Source of the DNA: Thuidium tamariscinum
Taxonomy: Eukaryota; Streptophyta; Bryopsida; Hypnales; Thuidiaceae
Direction: 5' to 3'
DNA: 64,000 nt
Assembly: GCA_947034885.2 (NCBI GenBank)
Contig: OX344750.2
Span: 11,278,053-11,342,052, forward strand
Position 1 is the stretch's first letter, and every line of letters starts with the position of its first letter. Positions 1 through 61,755 of this stretch are shown in pieces. Made by a program: the position numbers and the translations under genes. The notes beneath the pieces are model-generated. The model searched no databases. It worked only from the letters and a program-made list of their open reading frames with translations, and was not told the origin of the DNA.

Positions 1-1367
1 GTATATAGTGACTCTTTTCATTTGTAACAAAAAATTCATATTGATATTACAAATTTTTCAAAATTGAGAATAATCAGAATATTCTAATTCACCAAAAAAA
101 ATTTATGGAAAATTTGGGACACCCAAAAATTGGACAAGGGTGTCCTTTTGACACCCAAAATTTTGACCAGGGTGTCCCCTAGAAATTTGGCTAGGGTGTC
201 TAATTTATGCCCTGAGTGTGAGCTTCTAAGCCTCAAAGATGATGCACCTATAATGTAGTTGTTTATACTATAGAAACCTTTTATAATAAGAGTGTATTTA
301 TATTATAGGGCCCTATATTATAGGTATTAGGACTATAAACACCTTCTTAGCTGGAAGTATAAGTACTTATATACATATTAGGAGTTCACATGCTTGTGTT
401 CATGCTCATTTACTAGCATCGGTGCACTATTTTATGTTCAAGTTTTCATGAATTAGAATCCCATCTACATCAAAAGAAAGTGAAATAAGTTTTAGTCAAT
501 CACTCCATCCATGAAGTTCGCACTAATTTATGTTCAAATTTTTATAAGTTGTTTCAATTTTTTTGCCGTTGTTTACAGGTTATAGATTGAAATTTGTAGA
601 CATAATAATATTTGAATTGACATTTTCAAAATAAACATAATAAAGGACTAATGAGACCACATTGTTTTATTTTACACATGAAAACATAAGTGTTCATAAT
701 GGATTTGTGTATTGATATTTTTTTTCAAACATATTCTACGCATAGTCATACAATTTAAAGGTTAATTTTTTTAAAGTAGTAAATACTATTACACTACAAT
801 TTTTTCCAAATTCTACAAATAAAATATTATATATAAGAAACTAAGATACTAGGAATATAATAAGTACTCCTGTTTTTATCATAACAAATGTTTTATTCAC
901 AATTCTAAAGACTCAAAAATGCTCGTACAAACATGTTGTGCAATCACTAAATGAGAGGAGGTCCTAAAAGTGCTCAAGATCCAAGACCACCCACTTCTTC
1001 AAATGTAAGTTATTTAAACATGTTGTTTTTCTGTACCCTTGAGCAATGTGCAAACAATGTACATTTTAGGAGGTGGGCGATTTTAGGTCCCCATGCCATT
1101 TCAACTCCAATAAATCATAACTAATTTGACATAGTTCCACAAAGTTCCAAAGAACTTGGTTTACATGCTAATTGCACATATCTTTCAAGGACAATTGACC
1201 ATTGAAGGATTAAAAGTAAATAATAGGTAGGTAAAACTTCTTTGAAGTAGTTCTCAAAAATATTCCCTTAAAAGACAAGTGGAATTGATGTGTACCCCAT
1301 TTGGTTTTGTATTTCTTAAAGCTTTGTAGAATTAGTTATGAAATTTTGAAGTTGAAATGCCATAAGG
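1..1367. other. AT-rich intergenic stretch, no gene seen
   Basis: I see no open frame with coding character. At about 115-205 a short degenerate direct repeat built on GGGTGTCC/GACACCC occurs about five times, mixed with CAAAAATTTGG-like sequence. The rest is AT-rich and has no recognisable element ends. Confidence 0.5.
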
Positions 1368-1570
1368 CCCCGATCGGACAGCCACACTGATCGGACGGCC
1401 CTGACGAGGCGAGGCGAGGCGGACGGCCCCGATCGGACGGCCCCGACGAGGCGCGGCGGACGGATCGGACGGCCACTTCGAGGCGGATGGACCCGATCGG
1501 ACGGCCCCGACGAGGTTGCGGACGGGTCAGTCCGTCCGCAAGGTATAAGATGGGTGGACGGCCCGTCCGC
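1368..1570 (+). repeat. Left GC-rich GGACGG array
   Basis: A sharp GC-rich, CpG-rich island in AT-rich surroundings. It is built from degenerate copies of GATCGGACGGCCCCGACGAG, read about six times on this strand. The same words (GGACGGCCCCGATC) occur on the opposite strand in the right array near 9030-9125, so the two arrays are inverted relative to each other. The array runs directly into a TATA box and the 5' leader of the kinase-like gene. Open frames read through it are low-complexity artefacts. It may be a subterminal repeat of a mobile element, a promoter-proximal enhancer-like array, or both. Confidence 0.75.
1544..1550 (+). promoter_or_regulatory. TATA box of the kinase-like gene
   Basis: TATAAGA lies 222 bases before the ATG at 1766, just inside the GC-rich array. 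The context (GTCCGTCCGCAAGG before it, GGACGGC after it) resembles that of the TATA box of the opposing gene at 8743-8749. Confidence 0.55.
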
Positions 1571-1765
1571 AACCGCATTCCTATCTTCCCCCTTGTGTTT
1601 CACAAGAGAGAGCGGAGAGCTTGGTGGTTAATCCTCCATTGGCTCCTTTCTAAAGGAAGTTAGGAGTGGGATTTGGGGCCAAGTTGTTGCCCTTTTTTTG
1701 TACGTCTTTTCTGCTTTGTGCTTGAAATCAAGAGTTTTTAAACTCTTATCATTGATTTGATCACG

Positions 1766-3261
1766 ATGCCGAAAGGAAAGAAGGTAGCAAAGGCAAGACC
1801 TGTGGTGCTAGAGTCGCTAGACATTGAGGACATGCCCTCAGATGATTGCAAGGCATATCTCATCCGTATCATAGTGCAGTTTTATGAGGAGGAGAGCACT
1901 GCATCCCTTGATAGCAAGTACATCCGATATGAAGAGGAGTACATTGAGAAGTTCAAATCGGATATGACGAAGAGGATGACAGATGCTCTCTACGTTCCAG
2001 GATGGATTCATGAAACGGAGAAGAGGGGCTTTCAAAGGTTTCTGCAGAATAGGGTGCAAGATTCATTGTGGAATGCCAAAGTGGTATTGGCAAAGTACGG
2101 GAAGGAACATCGTGTGGATGATCCCACATTTGAAGAAGTCATTTTGAAGGCGGACTTGTTTGGACAACGATGTGCTCCGTTTACAAAGAATGCAAGGAAA
2201 CGGAAGGGACAAGGATCATTGGGTTGGTGGAACACGGATGAAGGAGCTGTAGAATTGCAACGTGGGCGGCGGCATCTTGTGGCATTGCCTATTACCGCAA
2301 GGGTGATTCCACAAGACAGTACGGTGTTGAAGGGGGGCTATGCAACAATCCAGAGGGTGCGAATTGAAGGATGTGCTGAGATACAAGCATCTTGGGAGTT
2401 TGCAGCGAAGGTATCGCATCAACAACGCATGAGGCCTCAACTCGCAAAGTTGGAACACCAGAACGAGTCAATGGCAGTGCGGATTCCACATGACGGAGTT
2501 ATACGATTTGCAGCTGTACATGCAACAAATAATGAAGGGTACATGTATTGGTGGAATGGCGGAACGTTGAGGCAAATGTTGAATATGGATAGGGACTATC
2601 CAGATGACATTCACATTCGATTGGCTTATTCCAAGCCATCACCCGAAGAGGTGAAGCGAGCATTCTTTCTAGGTCGCTGGAGAAAGAAACGTACGGAGCT
2701 CGCATGGGCATTGGTGCACATTTTGCATGCTTGCATCAAGCTGGGCATCTACACAACGATCTCTCGCCGGACAACATCATGTTTCACTTTCCAGATGATG
2801 AGTCACGTGTATATATTGGGGTTTGCGATTGGGGCATGACTACCGTACATAGTGATCCACCCAAATCCTTGTACACTTTCACATCTGAAAGTGAGAAGAA
2901 AGAAGCTTTACAAAGAAGATGGTGGGTGGATCCGTCTATTGTGTATGTGCATAGAAAAGATGCAGATGTGGAAACGATTCCACATTTATCACGTAAATCA
3001 GAGGAGTTTGCGGTTGGTAAACTAGCTCAACAGATCAACAGGCAATGCATGTCCAAGGAGTACGCGGCGCTTCATCGTGATAACAGAGGACATACAAAGT
3101 GGAGCCACCATCAGTTAGGACTTGTGTTTCATAATTATTTGGAATTTCTGTGTTCTACAGATGTAGAGAGGGCAGTAAGTTTGACTAAAATCGTCCAACG
3201 ATTTACTAGCCCAGGTTACAATTGGCCTATCCCAGATGAACATTTCCGCCATTCATATTAG
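1766..3261 (+). pseudogene. Protein-kinase-like gene, one frameshift
   Basis: The frame starts at ATG 1766 and carries an N-terminal region of about 180 residues that I do not recognise, then a protein kinase fold. Visible motifs (residue numbers for the two frames joined): a glycine loop KGGYATIQRV near 190, the beta-3 lysine in EFAAKVS (K215), a helix-C glutamate (about E230), the hinge WWNGGTL, the catalytic loop HNDLSPDN (D about 332, N about 337) and DWG in place of DFG (D about 355). The C-lobe ends at TAG 3261, giving about 498 residues. The frame breaks inside helix E near 2729-2735: LAWALVHILHA is in one frame and HQAGHLHNDLSPDN in the next. One missing base explains this. All catalytic residues remain, so decay would be recent, or the base is an assembly error. 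The HNDLSPDN and DWG variants resemble eukaryotic kinase families found in transposon-rich and fungal (FunK1-like) settings. The substrate is unknown. It converges with the gene at 7451-8530. Confidence 0.8.
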
Positions 3262-3813
3262 TATTTTAGTGTTATACATAGAAGTATAGAAGTATTGAAT
3301 AGATGTACCGGCAAGGAAATATATCCCTATGTACCTCAACTATGTCATAAAAAGATGTGTGCATCACAAATTTTCCCAAATATATGTGCAATTCACTTCT
3401 ATCTCACATTTGTTTTTGCATGTTTTGGTCTTTTGGAACCCCTCATGATGAGTTCACCCTTGAAGTATTTCTACGAGATTTGGTGTTTTTGAACCTGTCA
3501 TGATGAGTTGACCCTTGAAGCCTTGAAGTATTGGTTCTTTAGATTTTGATGTACTTGGAAAGTTTTGAATAATTCCATTTTGATTTGTAAGATGAATGTT
3601 ATGGCCTTATGGGACTTACTAATTTTTCTAAAATTTTGTGTACATCTTCCCCAAGACCCCAATTTGTGCACTAGAAGATCTTAGGGTTACATGTGTCACT
3701 TCTAGTTAAAAATTTTGAAGCATGACCCATGGTTAAAGCCATATCGATAACTCTATTGCTATATCAATTACATTTAAGAAAAAAATTGAACATTAATAAT
3801 TGAGAAATCCTTC
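3262..3813. other. 3' flank of the kinase-like gene
   Basis: AT-rich sequence after the kinase stop codon, probably including its 3' UTR. A short direct repeat (CATGATGAGTT with CCCTTGAAG) occurs at about 3444-3465 and 3498-3520. No other feature was seen. Confidence 0.4.
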
Positions 3814-3817
3814 TTAA

Positions 3818-4597
3818 CCCCTAAAGGACCAAGGCCTTTTTTCTGTCAAAAAACTCTCAAAATTGCCAATTCTGTTGCATTCATCCAAGAAAACAAAAAA
3901 CAAAAAATTTAAGAATCTAACCGTAGGATCTTGTACTTAACTTGGTTGAGATGAAGTGGTAAAAATTTCATGAAGTTTGACCGTATAGATTGGAAGATAT
4001 GAGCATTCAAGGTTGGAAATACAAGTTTTCTTGAACTGTGGTTTGCAATTTCAGATGACTTTGACTGGAATTTGTATTAAAAAATTGCACTATAGACTTT
4101 GAATTTATAATTTCTTGTGTTAAGAAATTGAGTTGAGAGTCTAGGCAAAAAATTTCACAGAAAAAACACTTGGTTTTCATTCTTTAAGAAATTGTTAAGT
4201 AGATGTAGGTCCAAGATTGAAAGAAAAACTAAATGGTTAATAACTCTAAGATGGGATCGAAATACAATAATCCCAATGGTGAGATTGTTTTAGAAAGTAA
4301 ACATAACCTTGTCCAACAAGTTGTTTTGAAAAATTCTGAAAACTACATTAAGAAATGAATCCTATAAGTTATTTTTTCAAGAAATTGTAAAGTTCGGCCC
4401 GCCAAATGAAAATTTGGCCTTTTTGTGGTATAACTTTTTCTCCCGGTCACCAATTGAAATCAAATTTACATTCCCATGAAGCTAATCAGTTTTCCTATCT
4501 TATGAGAAAGTTTCAAAAAGATTTATTAAAAATTGAGGTCTACGGACCCTGCCCGAACTCCAAATTGTCCCCCGAGGGGACAATGGTCCTTTAGGGG
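3818..4597. mobile_element. TTAA-flanked MITE, copy A (CCCCTAAAGG ends)
   Basis: The element starts CCCCTAAAGGACC and ends GGTCCTTTAGGGG, a perfect 13-base terminal inverted repeat. TTAA flanks both sides (3814-3817 and 4598-4601). A TTAA duplication with ends beginning CCC is the classical piggyBac-superfamily signature. The 780-bp body has no transposase, so it is non-autonomous. Part of the body matches copy B (6205-7170) in inverted orientation, for example the TGAAGTTTGACCGTA segment near 3973. Confidence 0.85.
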
Positions 4598-4601
4598 TTA
4601 A

Positions 4602-5095
4602 ATTGATTATAGATTTTTTTTTTTTTTTTTGAAACAAATGGATTGATAATAGATTGAATGTTCATAATGTTCATAAGGTTTCTTCTTTGAAATTCCTTCG
4701 AAATTGTGAAATACATTGGAAAAAAAAAAATTATTTATTTATTTCTTCAATAGATTGAACAGGACAGGTTTTAAAACTTTGGAACAATCTTCTACATTAA
4801 CCCCTAATTGCTCAAACGATCATTTTCCGAAAGTTCTTCTTTACTTTGGGAAAATTTACTAAACCCAAAAAAGAACTTTTTTGACCTTTTTTCTTCCCGG
4901 TTTTGAAAAAATTAGGTTTCATTTGAACATTGATATTGAAAACTAAGATCAGTACGATCAAACAAAAGGTATAGCCAAAAAAAGGAGAAATAGTACAAAG
5001 TGTCTAAAATTGCTTAGTGTTGAGGAACGTACTATTTGGAAGAAGTACTAAGGCTCTCATTGATAAACACTATTTATTTTTCAACAAAGCAATAA
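4602..5095. other. AT-rich filler, no gene seen
   Basis: It contains homopolymer T and A runs near 4615-4630 and 4720-4730. No open frame or element ends were recognised. Confidence 0.4.
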
Positions 5096-5099
5096 GAAC

Positions 5100-5960
5100 C
5101 ACAGTTTTGACCAAAGTAAAAAAATTTCAAACCCTAAGAATGGAAATTGTATTTTTGGTGAATTTTTGAAGTTATATCTTCAGAAATCATTTAAAGAGAA
5201 TGTATGAATATTTTTTAATTTTGACCATATGGGTACTTTCTACTTTTGTGCTTTACATTGTCTTCTTTGATGCTAACTTCAAAAATGTTGTAAATCTTAT
5301 ATTTCATAACGCATTTGTATTTTGTCTTAATACGTTGGGCTTGTAGAGGTTGAATTTCTGGCATTTCTTTATAAATCAATGAAAAATAGAATTTTGACCT
5401 ATGAAAAAGAATTTCAAACCCTAAAAATAGGAATTGTATTTTTGGTGAGTTTTTGAAGTTCTATCTTGAAAATTCATTTGAAGAGAATCTATAATTATTT
5501 TTTGATTTTGATCATATGGGTACTTTCTACTTTTTGTGTTGTACATTGTCTTCTTTGATGCTAACTTCAAAAATGTTGTAAATCTTATATTTCATGACAC
5601 ATTCGTATTTTGTCTTAGTACCTTGTGCTGTTTGAGGTTGAATATTTTGCATTTCTTTATAAGTCAATAAAAAACAGAATTTAGACCAATCAAAAAGAAT
5701 TTCAAACCATAAAAATAGAAATAGAATTATTGGTGAGTTATTGAAAATTTATATTCAACATTCATTTAAAAATAATCTGAATTTTTTTTTACTTCGACTA
5801 GATGGATAGTGTCTATTTTTTGTGCTTTACATTATCTTCTCATTCTTCTTTGATACTAACTTCAAAACAATCGTAATGTTTATATTTTATAACACATTTG
5901 TGTTTTGTCCTAACCCGTTGGGGTTATAGGGGTTCAAAATGCATCGGCCTTTTGAACTTG
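5100..5960 (+). repeat. Three tandem copies of a ~288-bp unit
   Basis: The unit, marked by TTTCAAACCCTAA and GGGTACTTTCTAC, recurs with CAAACC(C/A)TAA at about 5128, 5415 and 5703, a period of 287-288 bases. The third copy is the most diverged. It is non-coding and lies between the two convergent genes. Confidence 0.75.
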
Positions 5961-6204
5961 TTCATTATTTTTTTTTAAAAACAATGTGAAGATCTACTAA
6001 AGTACTAATTCCATGAGTCTGAGGAGTCCTATATATTCAAGGACTTTTGAAGGTTTGGGGTATTGAAGTATTGAAGAAGTACACTTCAACTAAGTTTGTG
6101 GCAACAAATTTTGGGCCTTTTTTCTGTATGGAAAAATTGATTGGGTTTTTGCCTTTTTGGTAATATAATTTTATTTCAATTGTATTTTGAGAGAAAATTT
6201 ATTC

Positions 6205-7170
6205 CCCCTAAGGCCCAATGTAGGCAATAGAAAGAAAAACATGAATGATTTTTAAAATTCCTTTTTTTTTTAAAATAGCATTTTTTTCTACGTAGAGAAA
6301 CTTAATTTATTTTCATTGGATAAGACGCTGTGACGGCTATGAATCTTCTTGTTTTTCAAGCAAATCACAGTAAACTTTTGAAAAGGAGATGCATTACATC
6401 CATTTTAATAGTTGAATAGAGAATTGCATAAGGTTTAGTTCTTTTTTTTCAAAACGGTTTCACCATTGGAATTAATGTGTTTCAATTTGATGCAAGACCT
6501 ATCACCAATTTAGTTTTTGTGTACATTTGAAGCTTTGATTCATCCTATTCGGACTAAAACTGAAAAAGTTATGGACAATCTTGTTTTTTGGGCAATCTAC
6601 GCATCTTCTTCAGAAAACAACTTGTACAATTCATTTTTGAATGCAATTTTAAATTTTTACCAATTTTTTTTTTTAAAGCTTAAGTTTGTTTTCAACCCTA
6701 AACCCACCATTGGGATTATGATTTTTTAATTCAATATAAGGGCTATTAAGAATTCAGTATTTTGTTCAACTTTGGACCTACTTCTACTTAACAATTTTTT
6801 TTTATGTGAAAATCAAGTTCAGGCATTGTAAAATTTTTATCCCCAACTCTCAACTCAAATGTTCAAGAGAAAAAATTTTGACCTCATGGTGTGTAGTGCA
6901 AAACAAATCCAGAAATGGCCATGAAAGTCACGTGAAATTGCAAGACGTAGTTGAAAAAAACTTTTTTTTCCAACTTTGAATGCTCATATCTTCCAATCCG
7001 TACGGTCAAACTTCATGAAATTTTTACCACATGTTGTTAGAGAAGTGAAGTACAAGATTGTACGGTTAGATTCTAAGAAAAAAAGTGTTTTTAGGTTTCT
7101 TGAGTGATTGCAGCAGAAATGGCAGTTTTCAGTGGTTTCATAGCCAGAAAATGCCTTGGTAACTTAGGGG
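6205..7170. mobile_element. TTAA-type MITE, copy B (decayed left end)
   Basis: The right end (CTTAGGGG then TTAA at 7171-7174) matches the family terminus. The left end is CCCCTAAGGCCCAATG at 6205, where the flanking TTAA is no longer intact. The body matches copy A in reverse, for example AAACTTCATGAAATTTTTACC near 7010, and AGGTCC/GGACCT with TACTTCTACTTAACAATT near 6775-6795. Short open frames inside it (6517-6729) are not genes. Confidence 0.6.
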
Positions 7171-7450
7171 TTAATTTGTTTTTGGGGCAAACATAATGAA
7201 CACACAAACTCACAGCTTTGTAAATAAGGAGGCAGCATAGAAGCTTCACAAAGAAAATGGGACATAATTGAATCGGAATTTACAAATAGGCGTACTCAAA
7301 ATTTGTATTCAAAAAATGGCGAACATCCTCATATCGTCCTTATGCCAATCTGTATCCTATGGCAAGAACATACAAAAATCGATTGCTAATTACTATATTT
7401 CTATTTTAAAGCAAGCATTGTTTCGCTACAATCTTCCAAATTTTTTTCCC

Positions 7451-8530
7451 TCACTCAGATTCCGAATCGGTGTCATCTTTGCGAGTTGGGCCAGTTGAAC
7501 CAGATCCAAAAGTCCCGAGAAATGGTCCACCACCCCACATGTCTCCAGATCCACTTGATGCACCTCCATGCCCATAATTTCCATAGTAAGGTCCTCCAAA
7601 AGTTGGAGGAGGAATTGAATCATCACGCTGAGATCCCCTGTGCCGTGTATCATTATAAGAACTACTTCCAGAGAATCCAAGATAGTACTGAGAACTACCT
7701 TGGTTGGAACCATAATCATGTGTGGTTCCTTGGCTGCCTTGGTAGTTGCCATAGCCACCTCGAGGGTCATTACTGTAGTGTGGATCAGTTTGGCGATTTT
7801 GTGTCCCATAAACACCATGGTCATGTTGATACGATCCATGATGCCCATGTGGTCGACCACGATCCTCGAGACTTCGTTGCATTGCATCTCGCATTTCTTG
7901 CTGGTATTGGATGTCTTCGCGTTTTTGTCTACGCCCAGGTATCTCTCCAAATGACACAGGCGTTGAAGCATCCTTCTCCTCCTCCTCCTCCTCCTCCGAC
8001 CAATCATCCTCAACATCCGGCAATACAACCGGTGCATATCCAAGTTGGCCTCGGTTAGACCACTCTGGCATACAATCACTTATACCAATCCAACTCGTAT
8101 AAATAACAGCATCAGTACGATGCAGTTGGTAGACATTTTTGCCGTAAATTGTGCGCCAATCCACATCTTTGTGGAGCACAATCTCAGCCCAGACCATGGC
8201 CATGTTGGAGTAGTTCATCACATTTGGTTTGGAGTCACGTATTTTAGCTGACCGTGTGACTTCCTCATACCGGTGGACAAAGTGCTTGCTTAGGCACGTC
8301 GAAATTTGTCCCTCCCAACGACGAACTTGCTGTTCAGCATGTTCTCTTGACCACATTTTTGAGAGGTGCGTCATTTTGACGTACTTCTTGCATGTTGTGC
8401 AGTCCCAAGATTTCTTCGGCTCCTCCTCCCATCCAGGTTCTGCTACACACAAAGGGTTTGCCCAATCCTCCCAATTCATGTCTTGGGATTTGCCCTTGGA
8501 ACTGGATTTTGGTTTATTGTTGCGAGGCAT
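7451..8530 (-). CDS. Unrecognised acidic, Gly/Ser-rich protein
   Basis: An intact 359-residue frame starting at ATG 8530. Residues 1-15 are basic. A Trp-rich region (20-75) carries C44-x2-C47-x7-H55-x8-H64, a possible zinc-binding site. Residues 75-170 look globular (many W, Y, V, I). A run of seven Glu lies at about 179-185. Residues 200-350 are rich in G, S, Q, Y and H (prion-like low complexity). The tail ends in an acidic DSESE stretch with possible phosphorylation sites. I recognise no family and see no transposase DDE/D motif. The architecture would suit a DNA- or RNA-binding protein, in the way small accessory proteins bind subterminal repeats in CACTA-type elements; this is analogy only. 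It has its own TATA box and faces the kinase-like gene, whose substrate it could be. Codon-like composition and the long uninterrupted frame support a real gene. Confidence 0.75.
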   Translation of the reverse strand: MPRNNKPKSSSKGKSQDMNWEDWANPLCVAEPGWEEEPKKSWDCTTCKKYVKMTHLSKMWSREHAEQQVRRWEGQISTCLSKHFVHRYEEVTRSAKIRDSKPNVMNYSNMAMVWAEIVLHKDVDWRTIYGKNVYQLHRTDAVIYTSWIGISDCMPEWSNRGQLGYAPVVLPDVEDDWSEEEEEEEKDASTPVSFGEIPGRRQKREDIQYQQEMRDAMQRSLEDRGRPHGHHGSYQHDHGVYGTQNRQTDPHYSNDPRGGYGNYQGSQGTTHDYGSNQGSSQYYLGFSGSSSYNDTRHRGSQRDDSIPPPTFGGPYYGNYGHGGASSGSGDMWGGGPFLGTFGSGSTGPTRKDDTDSESE

Positions 8531-8730
8531 GGTAATAAAATTACCCCACAGTTCAAAATTAGGGTGATGGGAATTTCGGGGCCCGCAAAAGCAAATAATA
8601 ATTAAAACTCAATACTATGAAAGTATTCAAGTTTTAATCACAACCATCTCACCAAGTTGAAAGGGGCTCACAGAGCTCGAGGCACTGGATTACCCACTTC
8701 GGAAGGCGGACGATTGTGCCTCAATGAGCC

Positions 8731-9290
8731 GTCCGCGATGCTACTTATACTCACGGACGGCGGGCGACATCCCATCAAAATCCGACGGCATTCAGCGCGG
8801 ACGGACTCACGGAAGATCGTGCGGCCAAGATTGATCGCCAGTCGGATTCGGCGGTGCGGACGGACTACGAACGGAGTATGGACGGACTTCGGATGGGCTG
8901 ACGGACTGCGGACGGGCGGATACAGTACGGACGACTTGCGGACGGCCTGCGGACGCTCTCCGCACCATCCGCCCGTCCGCAGTCCGCCTGCAACCCGTCC
9001 GCGCGTCCGCAAGCCGGCTGCAATCCGTCCGCGCGATCGGGGCCGTCGGATCGGGGCCGTCCGCGCGTCCGCAAGCCGGCTGCAACCCGTCCACGCGATC
9101 AGGGCCGTCGAATCGGGGCCGTCCGCGCGTCCACAACCCGTCCGCGCGACCGCACTCTGTGCGTCCGAAATGCCGTCCGCGGAAGTGTCTGGTCGTCCGT
9201 CTGCTGGACGTACGCAAACAGAATTTCAAATGTCAATGGACGTCCGTGGGTTAGCGTCTACATCCCGTGGACGTCCGGACGTCCCGTCAT
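8731..9290 (-). repeat. Right GC-rich GGACGG array, inverted to the left one
   Basis: About 560 bases of GC- and CpG-rich repeats. GGACGG-type words face right between about 8750 and 8955, and CCGTCC-type words dominate from 8968 to 9190. A perfect 18-base inverted repeat pairs 8903-8920 with 8968-8985 across a 47-base loop. A 62-base tandem unit, marked by GCGCGTCCGCAAGCCGGC, occurs at 9001 and 9063 and partly at 9125. Read on the minus strand it contains GGACGGCCCCGAT as in the left array. Long open frames across it are composition artefacts. Confidence 0.75.
8743..8749 (-). promoter_or_regulatory. TATA box of the 7451-8530 gene
   Basis: On the minus strand GAGTATAAGTAGC lies about 213 bases before ATG 8530. 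The spacing and the flanking CCGTCCG (before) and GGACGGC (after) words mirror the left promoter at 1544. Confidence 0.5.
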
Positions 9291-9299
9291 CCCTGCAAA

Positions 9300-11102
9300 T
9301 GAGATGTTGAACTGTAATAATAAAACTTTTTAATCAACTTGTTGTTTGGTCTTTTTGTTGTTTATTAAATTAGATATGATGTTCTAATTTGGTTTTGAAG
9401 AGTCAAATGGCTACTTAATCTAAGTAAATGCAAAAAGGGCCTCATTGTAGATAATTTGAATAGGGCAAATTGACAAGATTAAAAGAATGGCTAATAGGTT
9501 AGGTGACTTTCAAAATCAAACTTTAGACAACTCATCTTCTACATAGCATTTGGCTTAGTAGCAAGGTCGAGTTGCTTTCAATTTATACAAAAGTTTAATT
9601 TGCTTATATGGCCCATTGACAATCTTGTATTAGTGCATTTTTTCAATCAAATTCTAATTTTCAAATTGATGTATTGTGATTGTGTAAAATCTAATTGCCT
9701 ATTGTAGGTTACTGGTTGTGAATTTGTATATATTGTATATATGTGAAAATCGAGGATATTTGTAGAATTTGTTAGATTGTCAATTAGATGATAATAACAC
9801 CATTTAATCTAGGGAGGTCCAAGAGAGCACTACTATAGATGGTCTTTCTAAGTAGTTGAGAGGCAAATTGATTAGGCAAATCAAGTTGTAATCTTGTGAA
9901 ATGGAGAGGCCACAAGGGTTGATGGAGAAATCATTGAGTAGATGACTAAATCAAGAGAATTATTTTGTCTAGTTGCTAAATAGATAAGTTGTTGATTTTG
10001 TTGAATCAATTGAAGAAGAAATTATGTCGAATATATTAAATGACTATTTTCATATATAAACTTGTTTGTGTTGATTTTGTCAATTTATAGTTGTCTAAAT
10101 TGTAATTAAGTAATTAATTTGGAATTTGTCTTCAACAAATTTTAGGATCAAACGGTTTATAGAAGTTAGAAAATGGGTAGGGCTATAGAATATGTTATTT
10201 TTGGCAATTTGATAAACTAGTAATAAATTGATACATATTGTTATTGGAAGAGAAACTACCTGCTATAAACTAGTTTAATTTGCTTGTAGTACTGTCAATA
10301 AAATTCATGAATGTGTCTAGTTGATCAGCAATTTACAAATCAAGGTGATTAGAAGAAAGGGTTGTCCTTTTTGGCGTCAAAATTGAAGTGACTTTCATGC
10401 CATTAATAATAACTTTTGGGGCATTGTGAACTCAATTTTTTTCAGTTTTTATGCCAATTTGACTTTCAAAGTGTAAATAGAGCTTAGAGTTAGTTCCGTT
10501 TCCATTTCCTTGTCAATTAGATTTATAGATATTAAATGAGACCTAAAAGGGTGTAAATAGACGGATTTGGAAGGAACTAAATAAAAAACTGGAAAGTCAA
10601 GTTGTCAAGGCACCTCACGGTGAAGAATTGTCTTTCCTTTTTTGGAACTATATATCCAAATGTTTAGTTGTTTTGTCTTCAGTGCATACATGTAGTATGA
10701 CTTACAATGGATTCGCTTTCAAATTGTCAAATATTCTAAGCTTTACCATTATGCAAATTGTGTATGTTTAGTGATTTTGAGCTGTGACAGCAGGTGGCTG
10801 TGAGCTCTTTGCTTTCTTGTCTATTTGTTCAATTGGTTTATGTGTGTGTATCTCAGTTGGAGGGTGTGATTGTCAAATTGTCAAAATCGAGTTACAGTTT
10901 TAATTGTGTTCAAAATTCCTTTCAATGTCTAGTAGTTTGTCAGTGATAAATTATAGTCAAATCGACTGAGGACAGTAGGTGGCTGTTACATAGTAATTGA
11001 CTAAATTGCTAAGAGAGGATGGTGTGTAAGTGAAATTTAATCAAATTGATATAGCTGGTCTATGGATGCTCTTGGAGTTCTTTGTAATGGAGTCCATTCG
11101 AC
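9300..11102. other. AT-rich DNA with recurring AATTGACT-like motifs
   Basis: No gene seen. Short words related to CAAATTGACTAAGT recur on this strand, for example CAAATTGACAAG near 9466 and CAAATCGACTGAGGACAG near 10960. The same texture continues after the MITE block at 13119-13877 and 14833-15480. GACAGTAGGTGGCTGT (about 10972) and GACAGCAGGTGGCTGT (about 10787) form a local direct repeat. Confidence 0.4.
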
Positions 11103-13877: not shown

Positions 13878-13881
13878 TTAA

Positions 13882-14828
13882 CCCCTAAAGCCCTGAATAG
13901 CGTTTTTTGAGATTATAAATTTTTTGGGCAGCTCACTACGGATGGAGTTTTTTTTAATTTTATTTCAAATTTTGATACAATGTGTGCCCAAGGAGTAGCT
14001 TTAAGGCCCAACAATTTTCATAACTTTTGACTTCACGGTTAAAAAGTTATGGCAGGATATGTTTTTTTCTTTACTAGGCGGGCAACCCAGGCAGCTGAAA
14101 AAACTTCTTCAAAAAAACTTTTTTCTTAAAAGTGAAATTTCAAATTGGTTCTTTAGATTTATACAGACATGTGAAGCTTTGAATCAATCCATTCCAATCA
14201 ATGAGTCAAAAGTTATGAAGATTTTGAGTTTGGGGTAGTTTGCGGCCAGTTATAGAATCTCTACAGTACAAAAAAAGTTTGAAATTCTTCATTTAATTCA
14301 ATTTTTCATATTTTGGGAAAAAAATAAAAACAAAAGGTGTAGATTGTTTATTACAACATTTTAACCATTGGGATTGAAAATTTTCAATTCCATGAATAAA
14401 ATGTTCACAATTTAGTATTTTGGCTCATTTTTTACTTCTTACTACTTACTTATTTTTTCCTATATGTTGTACAATTCCAAATGGTTTGAAATTCTTTGAG
14501 AATGTAGACAATTTGCATTGAAGTATGAATTCAAAAAGTAACCACCATTTTGAATTTTTTTTCACACAAATGTGACCTTGTGAAGTGCAGCTACCCGGAT
14601 TTTTGCAGGGATAAAAAAAACAATTTTTGTCAATTCAAATGCTTATATCTTGCAATCTACACGGTGGAAATTTCTAAAAAAATTTCTACATGTTTACAAA
14701 CCACCTTACTACAAGATCCTACAGTTACATGAGTCAAAAATGTGTTTTAAGAAAAAAAATTACACTTGTATTAGAAATGGTAGTTTTGGAGCATTTTTGG
14801 TGAAAACATTGTCAAAAACCTTTAAGTG
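13882..14828. mobile_element. TTAA-flanked MITE, copy C
   Basis: TTAA (13878-13881) is followed by CCCCTAAAGCCC. The right end is ACCTTTAAGTG followed by TTAA (14829-14832), a decayed form of CCTTTAGGGG. The body closely matches copies D and E near 50-51 kb (for example CTCACTACGGATGGAGTTTT and TTACAACATTTTAACCATTG). Non-coding. Confidence 0.75.
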
Positions 14829-14832
14829 TTAA

Positions 14833-26540: not shown

Positions 26541-26544
26541 TTAA

Positions 26545-27440
26545 CTCCTAAAGGACTAACATGGTTTTGACAATGGAGGTTTTCAATCAATTCTATCACT
26601 TTGATATTTTTTTACACACAGAAGTAATTAAATTTTTTTTATTTTTCACCGTACAAAAGTAAAGATTATTATATCTAGTATGCATGGAATTAATTGTAGA
26701 ATATTATAACAATTTTATTGATCAACTTCATAGGCAAAAAATGCAGTTTTTGGAGAATTTTTTTTATAAAAAGATGAATAAAGATTTTTTAACCTCCTAG
26801 AAAAATTCATTTGGATTCCAAAGCAAATTTAGTATTTTTATATTAAAAATTTTGAAAAATAAAAAACTCACTCAAATTTGTACACATTTTTCAAACATGA
26901 AGTCTTGAAAGTCAAATCTAAGCAAATTGGATCCTACAAAATTCTTTAAAATTTATGTATGGATAAATTTTTGAAATTCAACAACTAATGTTATTATCAT
27001 ATTTTTTGGAACATCTCAAAAAAATTTGAAATCATTTTAATTATTTTGTATTGTTAATTATACTAGATTGAACCTTTTATTTTTAAAATTGTTAAAAACA
27101 AAAAATTGAATTTTTTTTTCAAAAGTTTCTTTTGTGTGGATTATAGAATAGAAACGTATAAGAAAATGGGTTTTTTTCCATCTCTACTATTCTTTTCATG
27201 AAAAAACATTATTTTTGCTCCCTTTTCCTACTAGACTAAATTCTCGACTACATTTCTTAAATGAATTTTTAACTACTTCTCACATTCAAAATGAGAAAAT
27301 CGAAAAATGCAAAAAGTATGTAAACGTTTTTTTCTATAAGTACTTGGTTTACAAAATATTGAGATTTGTTTCACCCTTCAAAGAAATTGCCATTGAAAAC
27401 TCTAAAGAGGACACATTCTGTCCTCTTAGTCCTTTAGGGA
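26545..27440. mobile_element. TTAA-flanked MITE, copy J
   Basis: It starts CTCCTAAAGGACTAA and ends TTAGTCCTTTAGGGA, so 14 of 15 terminal bases pair. TTAA lies at 26541-26544 and 27441-27444. The body of 896 bases differs from copies A-E. The open frame at 27215-27499 crosses the element end and is not a gene. Confidence 0.85.
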
Positions 27441-27444
27441 TTAA

Positions 27445-48149: not shown

Positions 48150-49654
48150 CTAAAATCAATAAGGGTCCTACATTTGAGTGGTATTGGCTCAATGGCTAGT
48201 AATCTAGTATTGGGTTTGCCTACCTTAGTGGTGATGCTTTTTGAATTGATTGTATTTTCTTGGCACCATAATGCCAAATCATTCTTTTTTAAAATAAATT
48301 TCTACTTTTCACCAAATAAAGTAATTTTTGTCCATCAAATTTTTCTCATTATTTATAATATAGATGAAATCATCAATTTGGATGGTAAAGTATTTGAATA
48401 TGATTAAAAAGCATTTTTTGATTCAAAAGATGGATGGATGTAAAAATACAATGCTTCACTAAATTTTAACTCAAGTTTCTTGACTATATTTTCACCCAAA
48501 ATGTTCCAGAACTACCATTTCTAGTATGAGTACCAAATTTTATAGAGAAAAATATTTTGAGGCATATGTAACTATAGTTCTTATAGTATACTGACTTGAC
48601 ATTATGTCAAAAGAAATTTAGGAATTTCCATTGTGAAGATTGCAAAATATGAGTTTTTGAATTCATATAGACCCTTTTTTGGCCCTGCAAAAGTTTGAGC
48701 AATTACACCTCACAAGCTCACATTTGTTTGAAAATTTTCAAAATGATGGTGCTTCTTTGGATTCATTCTTAAAGTCAAGTTGACTACATCCTTGAAATTT
48801 TTTAGATTACTAGAATTGTACAACATATACAAAAAAGATAGTTTAGAGAAAGAAATAGAGAATGATTCAAAATATTATATTGTTAAGAATTTAGATATAG
48901 AATTAAAAATGCCAATAAAAATAATTTTCATGTTGTAATAAACAAGCTATATACTATGATTTTATTATTTTCAAAAATATTTAAAATTGAGTAAAATATA
49001 GGGCTTTGAAGTTTATTTTAGAGCATTTTAGAACATTTTAGAAAATCCAAAATTTCCTAAAAAAAAACTCCTCATAACTTTTGACTCATTGATGAAGATG
49101 GAATGATTAAGAGCTTTTTACAAACATATAAATTTAGAAAATCAATTTCAAATTTTTATTTTTAAAAAAATGATTTTGAAAATCTACCTGAATTGCCTAT
49201 TTATGAAAAAAGTTACATGTTAGGCCATAACTTTTGACTCATATTTTCAAATGTCCTAAATTTTAGTGTGTATCAAAGACATTCCTTGTCTACACCTTGC
49301 ATTCAAGTTTGAATCCAAAATATGAAAATCTCCAATCACATGTACTTGCCTAAAATTGCTTTGTTTCCAAATTTAGCAACGTAATCCTTTAAGTAATTAC
49401 CATCTTGTCATTTTTAGCAAAAGAAAAAAGAAAAAAGTGGTTAAAATTATTATGGTAGTCAACCAATATCTAATTAAATAAAAGGTAATAGAAATTTTGC
49501 AAATCTTAAATACAACATGATAAATTCTTTAATAAGTGATGAATTGATGTCATGTGAGAGTTTAAAAAAAAAATTAAACCCATAAAAGATCATTGTATTT
49601 ATAGGCCCAAATTACTTTAAAATACTTTTCTACAAAGTGAGGTTAAAATATTAA

Positions 49655-51536
49655 CCCCTAAAGGACCAAACCACGTTTTTTTTGGCAACATAGCAATTTT
49701 GGGTAGCTCACTACGGATGAAGTTTTTTTTTTCTTTGAAATTTTCACACATGTGCCCGAGTAGCTTTAGGGCCCAACAATTTTCATAACTTTTGACTTCA
49801 TGGTTAAGAAGTTATGGCATGATATGTTGTTTCCTTTGATTGGTGGGCAACAAAAAAAAACTTCTTTAAAAATTATTTTTTTAAGAAATTAAAATTTGAA
49901 ATTAGTTTCTCTGATTTTTATCTAAATAAAAAGATTTCAATCATTCCATTTTGATTAATGAGTCAAAAGTTATGAGGATTTTTAGTTTGAGGTAGTTTGT
50001 AGCTAGTTGTAGAATCTCTACACTACAAAAAAAGTTTGAAATTCTTTATTTAATTCAATTTTTAATTTTTTTGAAAATAAAAATAAAAATAGGGTGTATA
50101 TTGCTTAACAGAACATTACAACCATTGGAATTGTCTTCTGTTAACTCTATAAATAAATTGTTAATAATTTAGTATTTTGGCTCATTTTCTACTTCTTTCT
50201 ACTTACTATTTTTTTCCTATATGTTGTACAATTCCAAATGATCTGAAAATTTTCAAGCATGTAGCCAACTTCACTTGAAAGATGAATCCAAAGAGTTACA
50301 ATCATTTTTGACATTTTTCCATACAAATATGGTCTTCTGAAGTGCAATTGCCTAGATTTTTGCAGTGGTATAAGAATGATATTTGTCACTTCAAACACTA
50401 ATATCTTGCAATCTACATGGCGAAATTTTTTGAAATTTTTCCCACATCTTCTTAGACTTTTATTATAAAAGACCCTACCATTATTTGTCCAGAAATGATT
50501 TTTTCTTAAATTTTGGTAGTTGTTTAACCCCTAAAGGACCAAACTGTGTTTTTTTGGCAACATAGCAATTTCGGGCAACTCACTACAAATGGAGTTTTTA
50601 TTCTTTTTCTTTGAAATTTTCACACAATATGCGCCTGAGGAGTAGCTTTAAGGTCCAATAAGTTTCATTACATTTGACTACATAGTCAAAAAGTTATTGC
50701 ATGATATGTGATTTCCTTTGATCTCTGGGCAACTTGGGCAGATAAAAAAAACTTCTTTAAAAATAATTTTTTTTTAAAATGAAAAATTGAAATATTTTAT
50801 TTAGAATTTTGTGTATGCAGGAATCTTTGAATCATTCCATTTGGATTAGTGAGTCAAAAGTTATGAGGAGGTTTAGTTTGAGGTAGTTTGTGGCTAGTTA
50901 CAAAATTCCTACACTACAAAAAAAAGTTTGAAATCCTTTATTTAATACGATTTTTAACATTTTTGGCTAAAAATAATTGAAATAGGTGAAGATTGTTTAT
51001 TACAACATTTTAACCATTGGGATCAAAAAATTTCAATTCCATGAATAAATTGTTTACAATTTAGTGTTTTGGCTCATTTTCTACTTCTTTGTACTTGTTA
51101 TTTTTTTCTTCTATGTTTTACAACTCCAAATGATTTGAAATTTTTTTTGCATATAGCCAACTTGCCTTTAAGAATGAATCCAGAGAGTAACCACCAATTT
51201 GAACTTTTTTTCATACAAATGTAACCTTGTGAAGTACAGCTGCCCGGATTTCCACAGTGGTAAAAAAAGGATTTTTGTCACTTCAAACACTAATATCTTG
51301 CAATCTACACGGCGAAAATTGGTGAAATTTTTTCCACATCTATTTAAACTTGTGCTCTAAAAGATCCTATGGTTACTTTTGTCTAAAAATGTTTTTTTCT
51401 TAAAATTTGGTAGTTGTCTAAAAAAATGACAGTTTTGAAGCGGTTTTGGTGAAAACATAGTCAAAAACCTTTAGGGGTTAAAAAATGACAATTTTGAAGC
51501 GGATTTGGTGAAAACATAGTCAAAAACCTTTAGGGG
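49655..51536. mobile_element. TTAA-type MITE D, interrupted by E
   Basis: TTAA (49651-49654), then CCCCTAAAGGACCAAACC. The body to 50523 matches copies C and E. It is cut by E and resumes at 51482 with AATGACAATTTTGAAGCGG, ending in ACCTTTAGGGG at about 51536. The outer right flank reads TAAT rather than TTAA, a small decay. Confidence 0.75.
50528..51477. mobile_element. TTAA-flanked MITE E, nested inside D
   Basis: It starts CCCCTAAAGGACCAAACTG and ends AAAACCTTTAGGGG. TTAA lies at 50524-50527 and 51478-51481. Removing E and one TTAA rejoins D at a place where E itself reads GTAGTTGTCTAAAAAAATGA, so the insertion site inside D is fixed almost to the base. 950 bases, no coding capacity. Confidence 0.85.
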
Positions 51537-51539
51537 TAA

Positions 51540-52512
51540 TTCATCAATATTTATCTTTTAACAATTTCAATTATAGGAACCTTTAGTTAACTTGCTCAAG
51601 TACGTTTTTCCAAAAAATTTGAACAAATGTCTTCACCAATTGCAAGTTCAATGTGCTAAAACTTCAAAATGTATGCTTTTCTAGCCCTTTTAGAAGGTGA
51701 AGTTTTGTCTTTCAGCATTCTACGAGAAAAACCTGTATGTCCTATAACTTATGCATTTTATTCAATATGTTGAAAAATGAATTGAAAACATATGTAAATA
51801 TTATAACCAAAAAAGATTTTGAGTTCAATTTGTAAAAAATTATAAAGTGAAAGGTCATTAAATGAAAGATAAAACTATGTGCTAACAACTTTTAGAAAAA
51901 TTTGAGAATTGTTAATTTGACAATGGTATAAATGTTCTTATAAATAATTAGTACATTTTATATGTATTTTTATTTGAAAATCTTCAAAATTGAAAACAAA
52001 AATGACTTTATATGTTTTATCTACTTGCATCGCTTGCAAAATTAATTAAAACTCTTCATAATTTTTACCTCATTATTTGGAGTTATATGGTTAATTTTTT
52101 GGGGTATAGGTATCAATTTTTACAATTAAAAAAGAAATTATATTTATAGAAGATATTTTTTGGTGCCTAGTTTGACATTGAAAGTGAAAAAAAGAAAAAC
52201 ATTCTAACTTTTGCAATATTTGTTGGAATGACACAAAACAAAGCTTCACACATAGATTTTAATGAGTAGCATCCTCCAATAGGATTCCTGCAAAAACTCC
52301 AAATTATAAAGTTTTCAAACAAGTTGTTTCATAAATCCCTATTTAAGACCTTGGGTCTTTCATAAATCATTCACTTGCAACTTCTAAGAAAAATGGAGAA
52401 AGAAAAGAGATTGATTGGCTCTTGCAATTAATAATACTCTTTTTCTTTAATTCATTCAATGATTAAAGAGGTCAATTCAAGGACCATCTCATGTCCATTT
52501 TACAACCATTTA
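51540..52512. other. AT-rich DNA, no gene seen
   Basis: No open frame or element ends were found. Confidence 0.35.
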
Positions 52513-54227: not shown

Positions 54228-55046
54228 TCACAGCAAAAACTCCGAGGACATCTTCCTCCGCTTCTCCGCTGGTTCCTCCTCGCCCACCAGATGATGCTGA
54301 TGATCGGTCGAAGACAAGATATCCGTCGCCAAGATTTTCAGCAACGACTCCGAGGAGCCCGTGGTCCCCGCCTGCAACTCCATCGCGGCCCCCGCACTCG
54401 CCGCACTCCCAACAATATTCTGCAACAAATCCTCTACTTGCAACGCCGCCGCATCCCGATTGGATTTCGTTAGGGTTAGAATCGCAGTATCCGGTCGCTT
54501 CTTGATCGCCTCCACAAAAGGCAGGTCATGTCCGAACCGACAAGCAGGGAGTGACCCGAACACCGCCACTTGTGGCGAAGCCAGCAACGCCATGAGCGAC
54601 TCCTTGAAGTCATTGCTCTGGAGCTCCATCCGCCCCACTTCGTCCACCACGTGCAGCTTAATAGCTTTGCTCGGCGTCAACAACGGCAACACCGTCTTCT
54701 CGAAAGCCTCCAATGCGAAATAGTATTTCCCCACCTTCGGACCACACCCCCGCCGCAACCGGGAGAGAGGCGCCCGCTCGCCAGCAAAAGTCTCCACGTC
54801 TAACCCTATCTTCTCTCCCGTCTTGGGATTGCGAGCTTCTAGAGTGTAGAACCCCGCCACAGCATCTTTAGGCAGCTTCTTCACGGCATTCAAGACAAGA
54901 GAAGTCTTGCCAACTCCGGGTTGCCCTGTGACAAACACATTGATGGCAGAAGAAGAAGGGGGCGGCTCGATCGCGGTCAGGTCCGCGTCCACCTCGGTAC
55001 CAACCATGATCACGGGGACCAGGAACAAGTGCACAACACCATCCAA
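54228..55046 (-). CDS. THEP1/NTPCR-type nucleoside-triphosphatase
   Basis: An intronless 272-residue frame. Residues 31-44 carry the Walker A motif GQPGVGKTS after the beta strand INVFVT, and the Walker B motif is VVDEVGRMEL. Between them are the family hallmarks GFYTLEARNPKTGEKIGLDV and VGKYYFALEAFE. Later come GSLPACRF, LPFVEAIKKRPDTAIL and TKSNRD. These match the cancer-related NTPase (NTPCR/THEP1) family, AAA-like enzymes that hydrolyse NTPs to NDPs; their cellular role is poorly known. The family core is about 190 residues. Here there is an added C-terminal tail of about 50 residues, low in complexity and ending near a basic EKRRKM cluster (possible nuclear signal). Two starts are possible: ATG 55046 or ATG 55007 (MVGTEV). 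The second gives a more typical N-terminus. The gene stands alone, with a CT-rich leader upstream. Confidence 0.9.
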   Translation of the reverse strand: MDGVVHLFLVPVIMVGTEVDADLTAIEPPPSSSAINVFVTGQPGVGKTSLVLNAVKKLPKDAVAGFYTLEARNPKTGEKIGLDVETFAGERAPLSRLRRGCGPKVGKYYFALEAFEKTVLPLLTPSKAIKLHVVDEVGRMELQSNDFKESLMALLASPQVAVFGSLPACRFGHDLPFVEAIKKRPDTAILTLTKSNRDAAALQVEDLLQNIVGSAASAGAAMELQAGTTGSSESLLKILATDILSSTDHQHHLVGEEEPAEKRRKMSSEFLL

Positions 55047-59500: not shown

Positions 59501-59946
59501 TTGCTACAAAGTTCATATATTGTTGTCTAACTAGACGTCTTGTCCAAATAATTTTTCATTCATCCAAAGCAATGTAGATAACCTTCATTTATGACTTCAT
59601 TTGATGGAATTTGGGTGAAAAATATAATGACAAAAAGATACACAGTAAACTAAAACAATTCAAATGTTAAAACAATTTAAAGTTTGAAACACTTCAAAAA
59701 GTAATTAAATTTTTAAAAGGATTAATAGTTTCTCCGGAGACCAGCTGTGGACTAGGTGATTGAAGAATCATATCCTCTGCCACTCACCTTCGAAAGCATT
59801 CACGTCCACGTTTTGCAATGGCATTTTGAGACCCCATCTCCGCAGTTTTGAATACTCAAATTGTTACTGAAGAAGAAGAACAAAGACAAGTGAGATGGCA
59901 GAGACAGCCATGGACTGAAGCAGAAGCGAAGACATAGATCTCCTTG
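59501..59946. other. Transition to gene-like DNA
   Basis: The first half is AT-rich. From about 59735 the base composition becomes gene-like (AGACCAGCTGTGGACTAGG onward), probably the 5' flank or leader of the next unit. Confidence 0.35.
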
Positions 59947-60108
59947 ATGAACCCAATTGCTGCAAAACTTTTCTTTGCTCATGTTTCCGAAGAATTGAGT
60001 GGTGGCCGAATTTGCGTTTGGCTGGATGAGCAGAATCGCGAAGGAGCTGTTTTCAAAGCTTCTGGTACTGCTTTACTCTTAGATGGTTGCTTCCAGCTTG
60101 AATCTTAG
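59947..60108 (+). CDS. Short open frame or first exon, unrecognised
   Basis: A 53-codon frame beginning MNPIAAKLFFAHVSEELSGG, with a balanced, protein-like composition. It ends in TAG directly before GTTCGC. It could be a short gene or the first exon of a spliced gene covering 59.9-61.5 kb. I recognise no domain. It has gene-like codon use, unlike the AT-rich DNA to the left. Confidence 0.4.
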   Translation: MNPIAAKLFFAHVSEELSGGRICVWLDEQNREGAVFKASGTALLLDGCFQLES

Positions 60109-60232
60109 GTTCGCTGGGTTTCTTCGAGGTCTTGATCTTCTGTATGAGGCTGACTTTGGCTATTTTTCTTATCTCTGTACGCTCTTCTACACACTTCTCC
60201 AGTTCGCCACTAGTGTAGCCTCTTTTGTTGTG

Positions 60233-60570
60233 GAGAATGTGGGAACCCTATATTTTTTGGGGGGGCACAATTGTGTTCTGAAATTCATGGAATGATTTCA
60301 GAAGCAGTCAATCGAGGTACGACACTGCAAGGTGTGGAAGATCAATGAATTACACTGTGATTTGTGAAAGAATGAATTTCTATCAGTTCCTCACCTCATC
60401 AGTTATTATTGAGAATGTGGAAACCCTACGTTTTTTCTCATGGCACAATTTCGTTATGAAATTCATGGAATGATTTCAGAAGCAGTCATTTGAAGTACGA
60501 GACTGGGTGGGGTGGAAGATTAATGGATAGTGTGACTTGTAGAAGAAGGAATTTGTATCAGTTTCCCCAC
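60233..60570 (+). repeat. Tandem duplication, period 178
   Basis: GAGAATGTGG-AACCCTA, AAATTCATGGAATGATTTCA and AGAAGCAGTCA occur in the same order at 60233-60390 and 60411-60570. This is an imperfect direct duplication of about 160-178 bases within the gene-like stretch, probably intronic or UTR. Confidence 0.75.
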
Positions 60571-60789
60571 TTCGATGTTTAAATCCAGTGCTCCGAAGAC
60601 CTTACGAGGTCTTACTCTTTTTATTTTTAAGGATCTTTGTGCCGGAGCCTTGTTGTTCGCTCAGAGCTAATAAGGACTTTGGTGTAGCTTTGAGTAGCAC
60701 ATTTGAATTTTCAAAGTTGTGGATGCGTATCGCAAAACCCTAAGGTAGAATTGTAGTAGTTTTGAAGATCCTAGTGTACATTGAAATCA

Positions 60790-60966
60790 ATGATGAAGGA
60801 AATCAACCCTAGGGAAACAATTTTTCTTGAGATTTGGATTGGACCTATTAGCGCCCATTCTGATCTTATTACAAACCCTAGGGTTTGTGATTTGTGGTCT
60901 GTGGTTTATGAGGACCGCAAGGTTTTGCTACAGGAGCTACATGAGCAATCTGACGATGAGCTTTGA
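60790..60966 (+). CDS. Possible exon, unrecognised
   Basis: An open frame beginning MKEINPRETIFLEIWIGPIS with protein-like composition, ending at TGA 60966. Inside it lies a palindromic double telobox, CAAACCCTAGGGTTTG (60872-60887); telobox motifs are common near plant genes for growth and translation. It may be an exon of the same unit as 59947-60108 and 61165-61488, or chance. No family assigned. Confidence 0.3.
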   Translation: MMKEINPRETIFLEIWIGPISAHSDLITNPRVCDLWSVVYEDRKVLLQELHEQSDDEL

Positions 60967-61164
60967 ATTTGCAGGCAAGGAGGGTGTAACATAAACTATC
61001 AACGTCAACTAATTTTGTAGAATTCAAGGGAGAAGTTGTGAATTAGAATCTGAAGATGCTTTTAAGGGACCGCCCAAAACGAAGTTCGAAGCGTCTCTAT
61101 GAAGTGCCAGTACTACACAGACAACATGTAGAACAGACATACCTCTCTTCAGCAGAAGAGAACG

Positions 61165-61488
61165 TTGCCTTGCCGTAAGCCTTTCCATCAAACAAGCCTT
61201 GTAATTTTTCATGGTGCAGCTCTTGGATGTAGCTTTGTTGCCAGGAGACTGGAAGATGACGTTCGGTTCTATGCTTGCAGCGATGTTGCATACAAGGAGA
61301 CTCAAACCCTAGAAATCCGAGGCGTGCATCGCACTTTGAAAACGGCTTGGGATGAGAGACCACCATGGATGCGAACAGTGTACTCTGGTAAAGAGGGTGA
61401 GTTTCCCGAACTAATGGTTCTCTCAAAATTTGTTCAGCTATGGGAGGAGGATTTACATGCCATTTCGGATGGTGCTTTGTCAGGGTAG
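61165..61488 (+). CDS. Probable C-terminal exon, unrecognised
   Basis: An open frame of up to 107 codons. The last 75 or so residues look strongly protein-like: they include YACSDVAYKETQTLEIRGVH, AWDERPPWMRTVYSG and GEFPELMVLSKFVQLWEEDL, ending at TAG 61488. The start is uncertain, because an exon beginning after a TTCAG at about 61150 is as likely as ATG 61165. I cannot place it in a family. It ends about 260 bases before the TATA box of the next gene, so it looks like the 3' end of a separate upstream gene. Confidence 0.45.
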   Translation: MPCRKPFHQTSLVIFHGAALGCSFVARRLEDDVRFYACSDVAYKETQTLEIRGVHRTLKTAWDERPPWMRTVYSGKEGEFPELMVLSKFVQLWEEDLHAISDGALSG

Positions 61489-61747: not shown

Positions 61748-61755
61748 TATAAATA
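61748..61755 (+). promoter_or_regulatory. TATA box of the CREST-type gene
   Basis: A perfect TATAAATA about 55-65 bases before the first usable ATG (61811), in the gap between two genes. Confidence 0.6.

Follow-up and report, generated by a model that had tools for sequence, protein, structure and literature searches.

A kinase gene and its partner in the moss Thuidium tamariscinum as part of a putative 22-kb, four-gene hAT transposon with GGACG arrays

What kind of unit do two convergent genes form when each is preceded by a GC-rich GGACG array, the arrays are inverted to each other and the surroundings are AT-rich? This question is raised by the start of a 64,000-bp stretch of the Thuidium tamariscinum genome (contig OX344750.2; G000:C2:11278053-11342052 in our numbering), which is referred to below as the window. 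Gene A (1766–3261, plus strand) encodes a kinase-like protein and gene B (8530–7451, minus strand) an acidic, Gly-rich protein. A preliminary description had delimited the unit as 1368–9300 and proposed that it is mobile or selfish, with the kinase and its partner replacing or assisting a missing transposase. Here, we find that the two-gene unit is the right-hand 9.3 kb (window 1–9295) of a 22,006-bp element (G000:C2:11265342-11287347), which is very probably a four-gene DNA transposon of the hAT superfamily, with its genes in the order T (−), C (−), A (+) and B (−).

With base 0 defined as the base before window 1, the element extends from −12710 to 9295, i.e., 12,711 of its bases lie to the left of the window start. 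These limits were obtained by aligning genomic copies, as the preliminary description had proposed. Twenty loci were fetched around other copies of B, and 16 of them (L009–L024), read as further copies of the same family (family 1), were colinear with the window across A, the arms of an AT-rich middle part and B. On the right, homology between copies stopped between window positions 9266 and 9308 in 15 of the 16 (the stretch fetched for L024 was cut before that point), and the end motif CGTCATCC(C/T)TG was present in 14 of these 15, L011 having a variant. On the left, homology left the window and, followed through two more fetches and alignment, ended at −12710. The right limit of the unit is therefore 9295 instead of 9300, and position 1368 is not an end at all.

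Both ends carry 11-bp terminal inverted repeats (TIRs; consensus CAGGGWTGACG) with one mismatch, CAGGGTTGACG on the left and CAGGGATGACG on the right (9285–9295, minus strand), corresponding to the short TIRs of the hAT superfamily. In the window copy, CAAATGAG is followed by CAGGGTTGACG at −12710 and CGTCATCCCTG is followed by CAAATGAG at 9295, so that an identical 8-bp target-site duplication (TSD), CAAATGAG, precedes the left end and follows the right one (9296–9303). Six copies were tried and five could be read at both ends. An 8-bp TSD, as typical of hAT elements, was perfect in four of them (window, CAAATGAG; L009, AACACACT; L010, AGCACACT; L012, CACTTGAC) and matched in 7 of 8 bases in L013. 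The five sites are spread over three contigs and their duplications differ from site to site. The lengths of the elements are 22,006 bp in the window, 22,024 in L009 and, derived from end coordinates, 21,979 in L010, 21,720 in L012 and 22,090 bp in L013. When the joined L009 flanks were searched against the genome, only the two flanks themselves matched, overlapping in the 8 bp, and no paralogous empty site was found.

The transposase that had been thought missing is encoded in the part of the element that lies left of the window. Gene T (L032:6602-9649, minus strand), which with its N-terminal part starts at window position −8132, encodes the domains PF04937 (DUF659; 120.3 bits, cut-off 34.7) and PF05699 (Dimer_Tnp_hAT; 37.9 bits, cut-off 21.4), the combination of a hAT transposase. 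Because a hAT transposase is part of the element, replacement of the transposase by the kinase and its partner, or mobilization in trans, lost its support. In the genome search, 26 of 45 T matches were free of stops, 23 of them with an open reading frame of at least 1,090 amino acids (aa).

Between T and A lies gene C (window −2435 to −5754; L029:2246-5565, minus strand), which in the window copy was read as several pieces. The protein begins with a B-like N-terminus (36% identity of this piece to a B copy), followed by a coiled coil and a RING finger. The RING domain matched zf-RING_11 (33.5 bits, cut-off 27) and zf-RING_2 (32.7 bits, cut-off 27.3), by which C is a RING protein, with a putative ligase activity. 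In other copies, the open reading frame of C reaches up to 1,194 codons, or about 1,100 residues counted from the presumed ATG; 18 of 94 C matches had this 1,194-codon frame and were stop-free in the matched part.

How often these genes occur together was assessed in 363 Mb on 19 contigs, where only the best candidates were scored, so that all counts are minimum values. At least 113 matches were found for B (81 at 89–100% identity, 32 at 55–59%), at least 114 for A (81 at 70–100%, 33 at 57–60%), at least 94 for C (80 at 89–100%, 14 at 55–64%) and at least 45 for T (91–100%). Judged from these matches, the element is present in about 80 copies. The preliminary description was to be refuted if A and B never co-occurred elsewhere, which is not the case: within 40 kb of 79 of the 81 close B copies, an oppositely oriented A was present, at a median gap of 4,702 bp, and a B likewise accompanied 79 of the 81 close A copies. 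Random redrawing of the B positions (assuming one length for the contigs) gave a mean of 1.8 B with A. With exact ends on both sides and genes that travel together, its idea of a mobile unit held. Both A and C accompanied 73 of the 81 B copies, and A, C and T together 41 of 81. Seen from the other genes, 73 of 80 close C copies had B on the same strand, 40 of 45 T copies had all three other genes within 40 kb, and 42 of 45 had B on the same strand. The 14 distant C matches were unevenly distributed, 10 of them residing on contig C11, which might be a low-recombination or sex-linked contig with an older, more broken group.

The closest copies, L019 and L023, differ by 0.1% over the kinase block (approximately 1,959 bp), which suggests recent movement; the median pair differs by 3.5%. 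Within this block, transition rates across 17 copies amounted to 4.3% at CG, 2.2% at CHG, 1.1% at CHH and 0.7% at A/T sites. The excess of CG over CHG is as expected under plant methylation, to judge from these rates.

The arrays, first noticed for being CpG-rich and sharply unlike their surroundings, retained both characteristics. Upstream of A, the array at 1368–1572 has a GC content of 0.72 and a CpG observed/expected ratio (o/e) of 1.30; the array at 8690–9295, which constitutes the right subterminal region as well as the promoter region of B, has values of 0.65 and 1.47, compared to 0.30 and 0.37 at window 9297–64000. The two are inverted to each other, as had been described, by a 28-nt unit with 96% complementarity. 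The 22-kb element contains 83 occurrences of GGACG/CGTCC vs 14 in 59,994 flanking bases; of the 83, 18 lie in the first 250 bp and 30 in the last approximately 755 bp, i.e., as subterminal repeats of the type found in hAT elements. Altogether, arrays are located at both element ends and at each internal promoter, and the CpG o/e of the five arrays ranges from 1.12 to 1.47 vs 0.37 outside. Their lengths vary by copy, from 123 to 296 bp at A (9 of 17 copies with anchors found) and from 425 to 771 bp at B (16 of 17). Each gene has one TATAAG box within the 420 bp upstream of its ATG, at a distance of 263 bp for T, 166 bp for C, 222 bp for A (1544–1549, plus strand) and 219 bp for B (8744–8749, minus strand), with GGACG/CGTCC motifs around or upstream of it. 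The matching TATA-to-ATG spacing of A and B reported before was thus correct for A, and for B it is 219 instead of 213 bp.

Gene A is a divergent member of the protein kinase superfamily, as judged from the fold modelled for a relative, the catalytic Asp and the metal-binding DxG. Its reading frame contains the motifs GGYAT, EFAAK, HNDLSPDN and CDWG; HND and DWG replace HRD and DFG and show little or no variation among 26 relatives. The fold model of the relative P0056 (predicted local distance difference test score, pLDDT, 84.9) had its best PDB matches among ULK1 and FGFR kinases, with E-values of about 1e-7. By sequence, the Pfam Pkinase match of A stayed below the cut-off and a search of solved structures returned nothing (E up to 0.001). 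The frame is broken in the window copy (1766–2839 and 2704–3261), and a single frame of 495–498 codons exists in 10 of the 16 other family 1 copies.

Gene B encodes a 359-aa protein; counting the window copy, 15 of 17 copies encode it at full length (357–359 aa). The protein combines a conserved domain at approximately residues 15–130, modelled confidently over about 115 residues, with a disordered Gly-rich acidic tail. Comparison of the model to known folds (Foldseek, VIA-align) gave no convincing PDB match, which does not establish a new fold, and a sequence search of solved structures found nothing (E up to 1). An assignment to zf-C3HC (NuBaID) was considered and dropped, the match being below the cut-off.

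The same set of genes exists in a second family in this genome, represented by L025 and its neighbors. Starting from the end with CAGGGCTG, the order is A (−), B (−) and C (+), which differs from the T (−), C (−), A (+), B (−) of family 1, and L041 holds a transposase piece of 35% identity. A and B are 55–60% identical between the families. For the C proteins, identity is 50% and 51% over the B-like and RING parts, respectively, and 22% over the coiled coil. In family 2, too, an array is located upstream of each of A, B and C. At L027, B was found without A in the stretch fetched.

Beyond Thuidium, we found 55 proteins related to B, 58 related to A and at least 75 related to T, most of the latter carrying precomputed PF04937 and/or PF05699. 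The listings place the transposase P0114 and the B relative P0005 each on a single contig of 17,649 bp, and the transposase P0124 and the kinase P0070 each on a single contig of 27,639 bp, with the same source label within each pair; we infer that these are two same-contig pairs. The A relatives P0081 and P0093 come from another moss, Ceratodon purpureus, where one kinase cluster bears a V-chromosome name and has 126 member sequences. These kinases are perhaps from the same type of transposon. Among the named T relatives, P0174 is from Physcomitrium patens and many others are from flowering plants. One A relative, P0061, is filed under a metagenome-assembled genome of Bacilli and is probably plant contamination. 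No relatives of A or B were found in viral contigs and none of A in the genome_contigs collection, which fits a eukaryotic family.

How might such an element work? From hAT biology, T would excise and reinsert the element by cut-and-paste and recognize the GGACG repeats at both ends, comparable to the maize Ac transposase and its AAACGG motif. By analogy to the latter, the GGACG enrichment and the presence of arrays with a TATAAG box at all four genes suggest that the genes form one regulon sharing its motifs with end recognition. Such a regulon could be controlled by an element-encoded array-binding protein, which may be T, B or C. A and C, in turn, might act by modifying or degrading the transposase or, alternatively, a silencing factor of the host, and the outcome would be an element that is expressed despite host methylation. 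It is possible that the kinase and B help transposition. The regulon and the roles of the accessory genes are much less certain than the four-gene transposon itself. We tentatively propose that one type of array serves both as the end mark recognized by the transposase and as the promoter element of the four genes. B and C would share a new array-binding domain and, aided by the kinase, protect the activity of the arrays from host methylation. If true, a hAT lineage would have reached 22 kb and about 80 copies by means of its own transcription and anti-silencing system.

Several observations weigh against parts of this reading. All three T genes read (window, L009 and L013) are broken by stops, although the 26 T matches mentioned above are free of them. 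The N-terminus of T shows a CxxC...H pattern without a Pfam zf-BED match. The left end of L011 was not found in the stretches fetched, and 2 of 81 B and 2 of 81 A copies of family 1 are unpaired. Pairing is lower in family 2, where 13 each of the 33 A and the 32 B matches listed are paired; the A of L025 itself, found directly, is absent from that set. For array binding by B or C, neither protein has a DNA-binding domain above the cut-off, the bZIP/HALZ matches to the coiled coil of C are weak and below it, and in the B proteins of family 2 another residue stands in place of the first Cys of the CxxC pair. The ratios of nonsynonymous to synonymous substitutions (dN/dS; Nei-Gojobori, intact open reading frames only) were 0.24 for A and 0.47 for B within family 1 (10 and 15 sequences), 0.19 and 0.21 between the families, and 0.49 and 0.40 within family 2 (2 and 4 sequences), values that are lowered because broken copies were dropped and that between the families rest on saturated synonymous distances (1.2 and 1.9). 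As far as these ratios allow, A and B are under purifying selection, which speaks for the four-gene transposon.

A narrower form of the regulon proposal directs the accessory genes at the host: B or C would bind the arrays and block methylation in the manner of VANC, the RING protein would degrade a silencing factor and the kinase would modify chromatin or transcription proteins. Dense arrays of one motif resemble the targets of VANC as far as these are covered by the portion of PMC5735166 used here. In the moss, the arrays maintain a CpG o/e of 1.1–1.5 while the kinase block shows methylation-type decay, and array length differs among the copies. Set against this is the lack of a VANC-like or above-cut-off DNA-binding domain in B and C, and we regard host-directed functions as conceivable, with less than even chances.

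Alternatively, A, B and C could be captured host genes that travel as functionless passengers, similar to Pack-hAT elements. Most hAT elements need the transposase only, several copies have a broken A or B, and a role of the three genes in transposition is a proposal. But the same gene set recurs in a family whose A and B have diverged to 55–60% identity, two of the gene pairs (P0114/P0005 and P0124/P0070) apparently stay together in other species, selection appears to maintain A and B, the long C frame persists in 18 of 94 matches and one array promoter is common to all four genes. Passengers are therefore unlikely.

A transposase-less unit mobilized in trans, or a relative of CACTA elements as the preliminary description had considered, has very little left in its favor. 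The part of the element within the window indeed lacks a transposase, but one of hAT type lies between the same TIRs and TSDs, which refutes the idea for the full-length copies; copies with broken transposases may move in trans. CACTA (En/Spm) elements have CACTA ends and a 3-bp TSD, which the CAGGG ends and the 8-bp TSD of the moss element do not fit. Segmental duplication of host genes, brought to mind by the long, gene-rich copies, is the least probable of all in view of the sharp TIR ends, the differing 8-bp TSDs at five sites on three contigs and L009 flanks that occur nowhere else in the genome, and it is refuted at these five sites.

Read as a four-gene hAT transposon, the element both resembles and differs from several known systems. 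Most known hAT elements are small and have one gene, Starships use a tyrosine recombinase, and VANDALs are Mutator-like, defined by a Mutator-type transposase together with a VANC protein. The moss transposase is of hAT type instead, and no VANC-type match was obtained for A, B or C. According to the excerpt of PMC3260210 considered here, maize Ac is 4.6 kb long, has one transcript and carries AAACGG subterminal repeats that are bound by its transposase. The moss element is like Ac/Ds, so described, in its 8-bp TSD, 11-bp TIRs and hexamer subterminal repeats (GGACGG, with binding putative), and unlike it in its 22 kb, its four genes and the arrays at each internal promoter. Parts of PMC12730594 describe a fungal hAT7 with TET/JBP, a possible demethylating enzyme, and a 7-bp TSD, as well as TET-bearing IS3EU families with an alpha-kinase beside the transposase; these likewise are DNA transposons with accessory genes, whereas the moss element has a kinase, a RING protein and B, an 8-bp TSD and a plant genome as its host. 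The VANDAL/VANC system of Arabidopsis, in the sections of PMC5735166 referred to, shares the dense short-motif arrays in noncoding regions and the extra element-encoded proteins. Within what these two sources cover, there is precedent for DNA transposons that carry accessory genes. The giant eukaryotic transposons outlined in part of a 2019 review (PMC6431247), and likewise the Starships, resemble the moss element in being large and having accessory genes; in the text of this review as available, the whole word "hAT" is absent. In literature titles and the openings of abstracts, we recognized no description of such a four-gene hAT element.

A 22-kb hAT family with about 80 copies, a kinase under apparent purifying selection and a RING protein suggests that a plant cut-and-paste transposon can maintain a multi-gene program. 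The function of accessory genes in DNA transposons and the response of such elements to methylation can be addressed directly in this system. Caution is also called for in moss annotations, where kinase and RING genes present in multiple copies may belong to transposons rather than to the host, possibly including the 126-member Ceratodon purpureus cluster.

Inside the element, the AT-rich stretch between A and B (3814–7174) consists of TTAA-ended inverted-repeat insertions. The first nested repeat (3814–4601) has an 18-nt perfect terminal inverted repeat, and its left arm occurs in all 16 other family 1 copies. The second (4797–7174, with boundaries inferred from the end motif) contains a tandem repeat at 5086–5840 (unit 288 bp, 2.6 copies). 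The center, at approximately 4540–5614, aligned weakly or not at all in 8 of the 16 (L015–L019 and L021–L023). An insertion private to the window copy was rejected, since the outer arms are kept in all 16 other copies; it follows that the insertion is old in the family. We also discarded the possibility that the arms are a 3′-end module of the genes, because similar TTAA-ended motifs exist elsewhere in the window, and the arms are taken as ordinary nested repeats on this sequence evidence. More such inverted motifs, of the type TTAACCCCTAAAGG ... CCTTTAGGGGTTAA, were detected at window 13878–14832, 26541–27444 and 49651–51540. They resemble those nested in the element and, by their ends, are piggyBac-like small repeats.

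Outside the element, to its left, a separate transposase gene, apparently of Mutator type, is suggested by open frames at window −17744 to −14697 (L032:256-3303), one of which encodes a SWIM zinc finger. No Rfam match at the gathering score and no tRNA were detected in the window. A 259-aa open frame at 54228–55007, in a GC-richer stretch, matches NTPase_1, presumably of the THEP1-like type, and is probably a host gene. Toward the right end of the window, at 59501–64000, the GC content climbs to 0.35–0.45.

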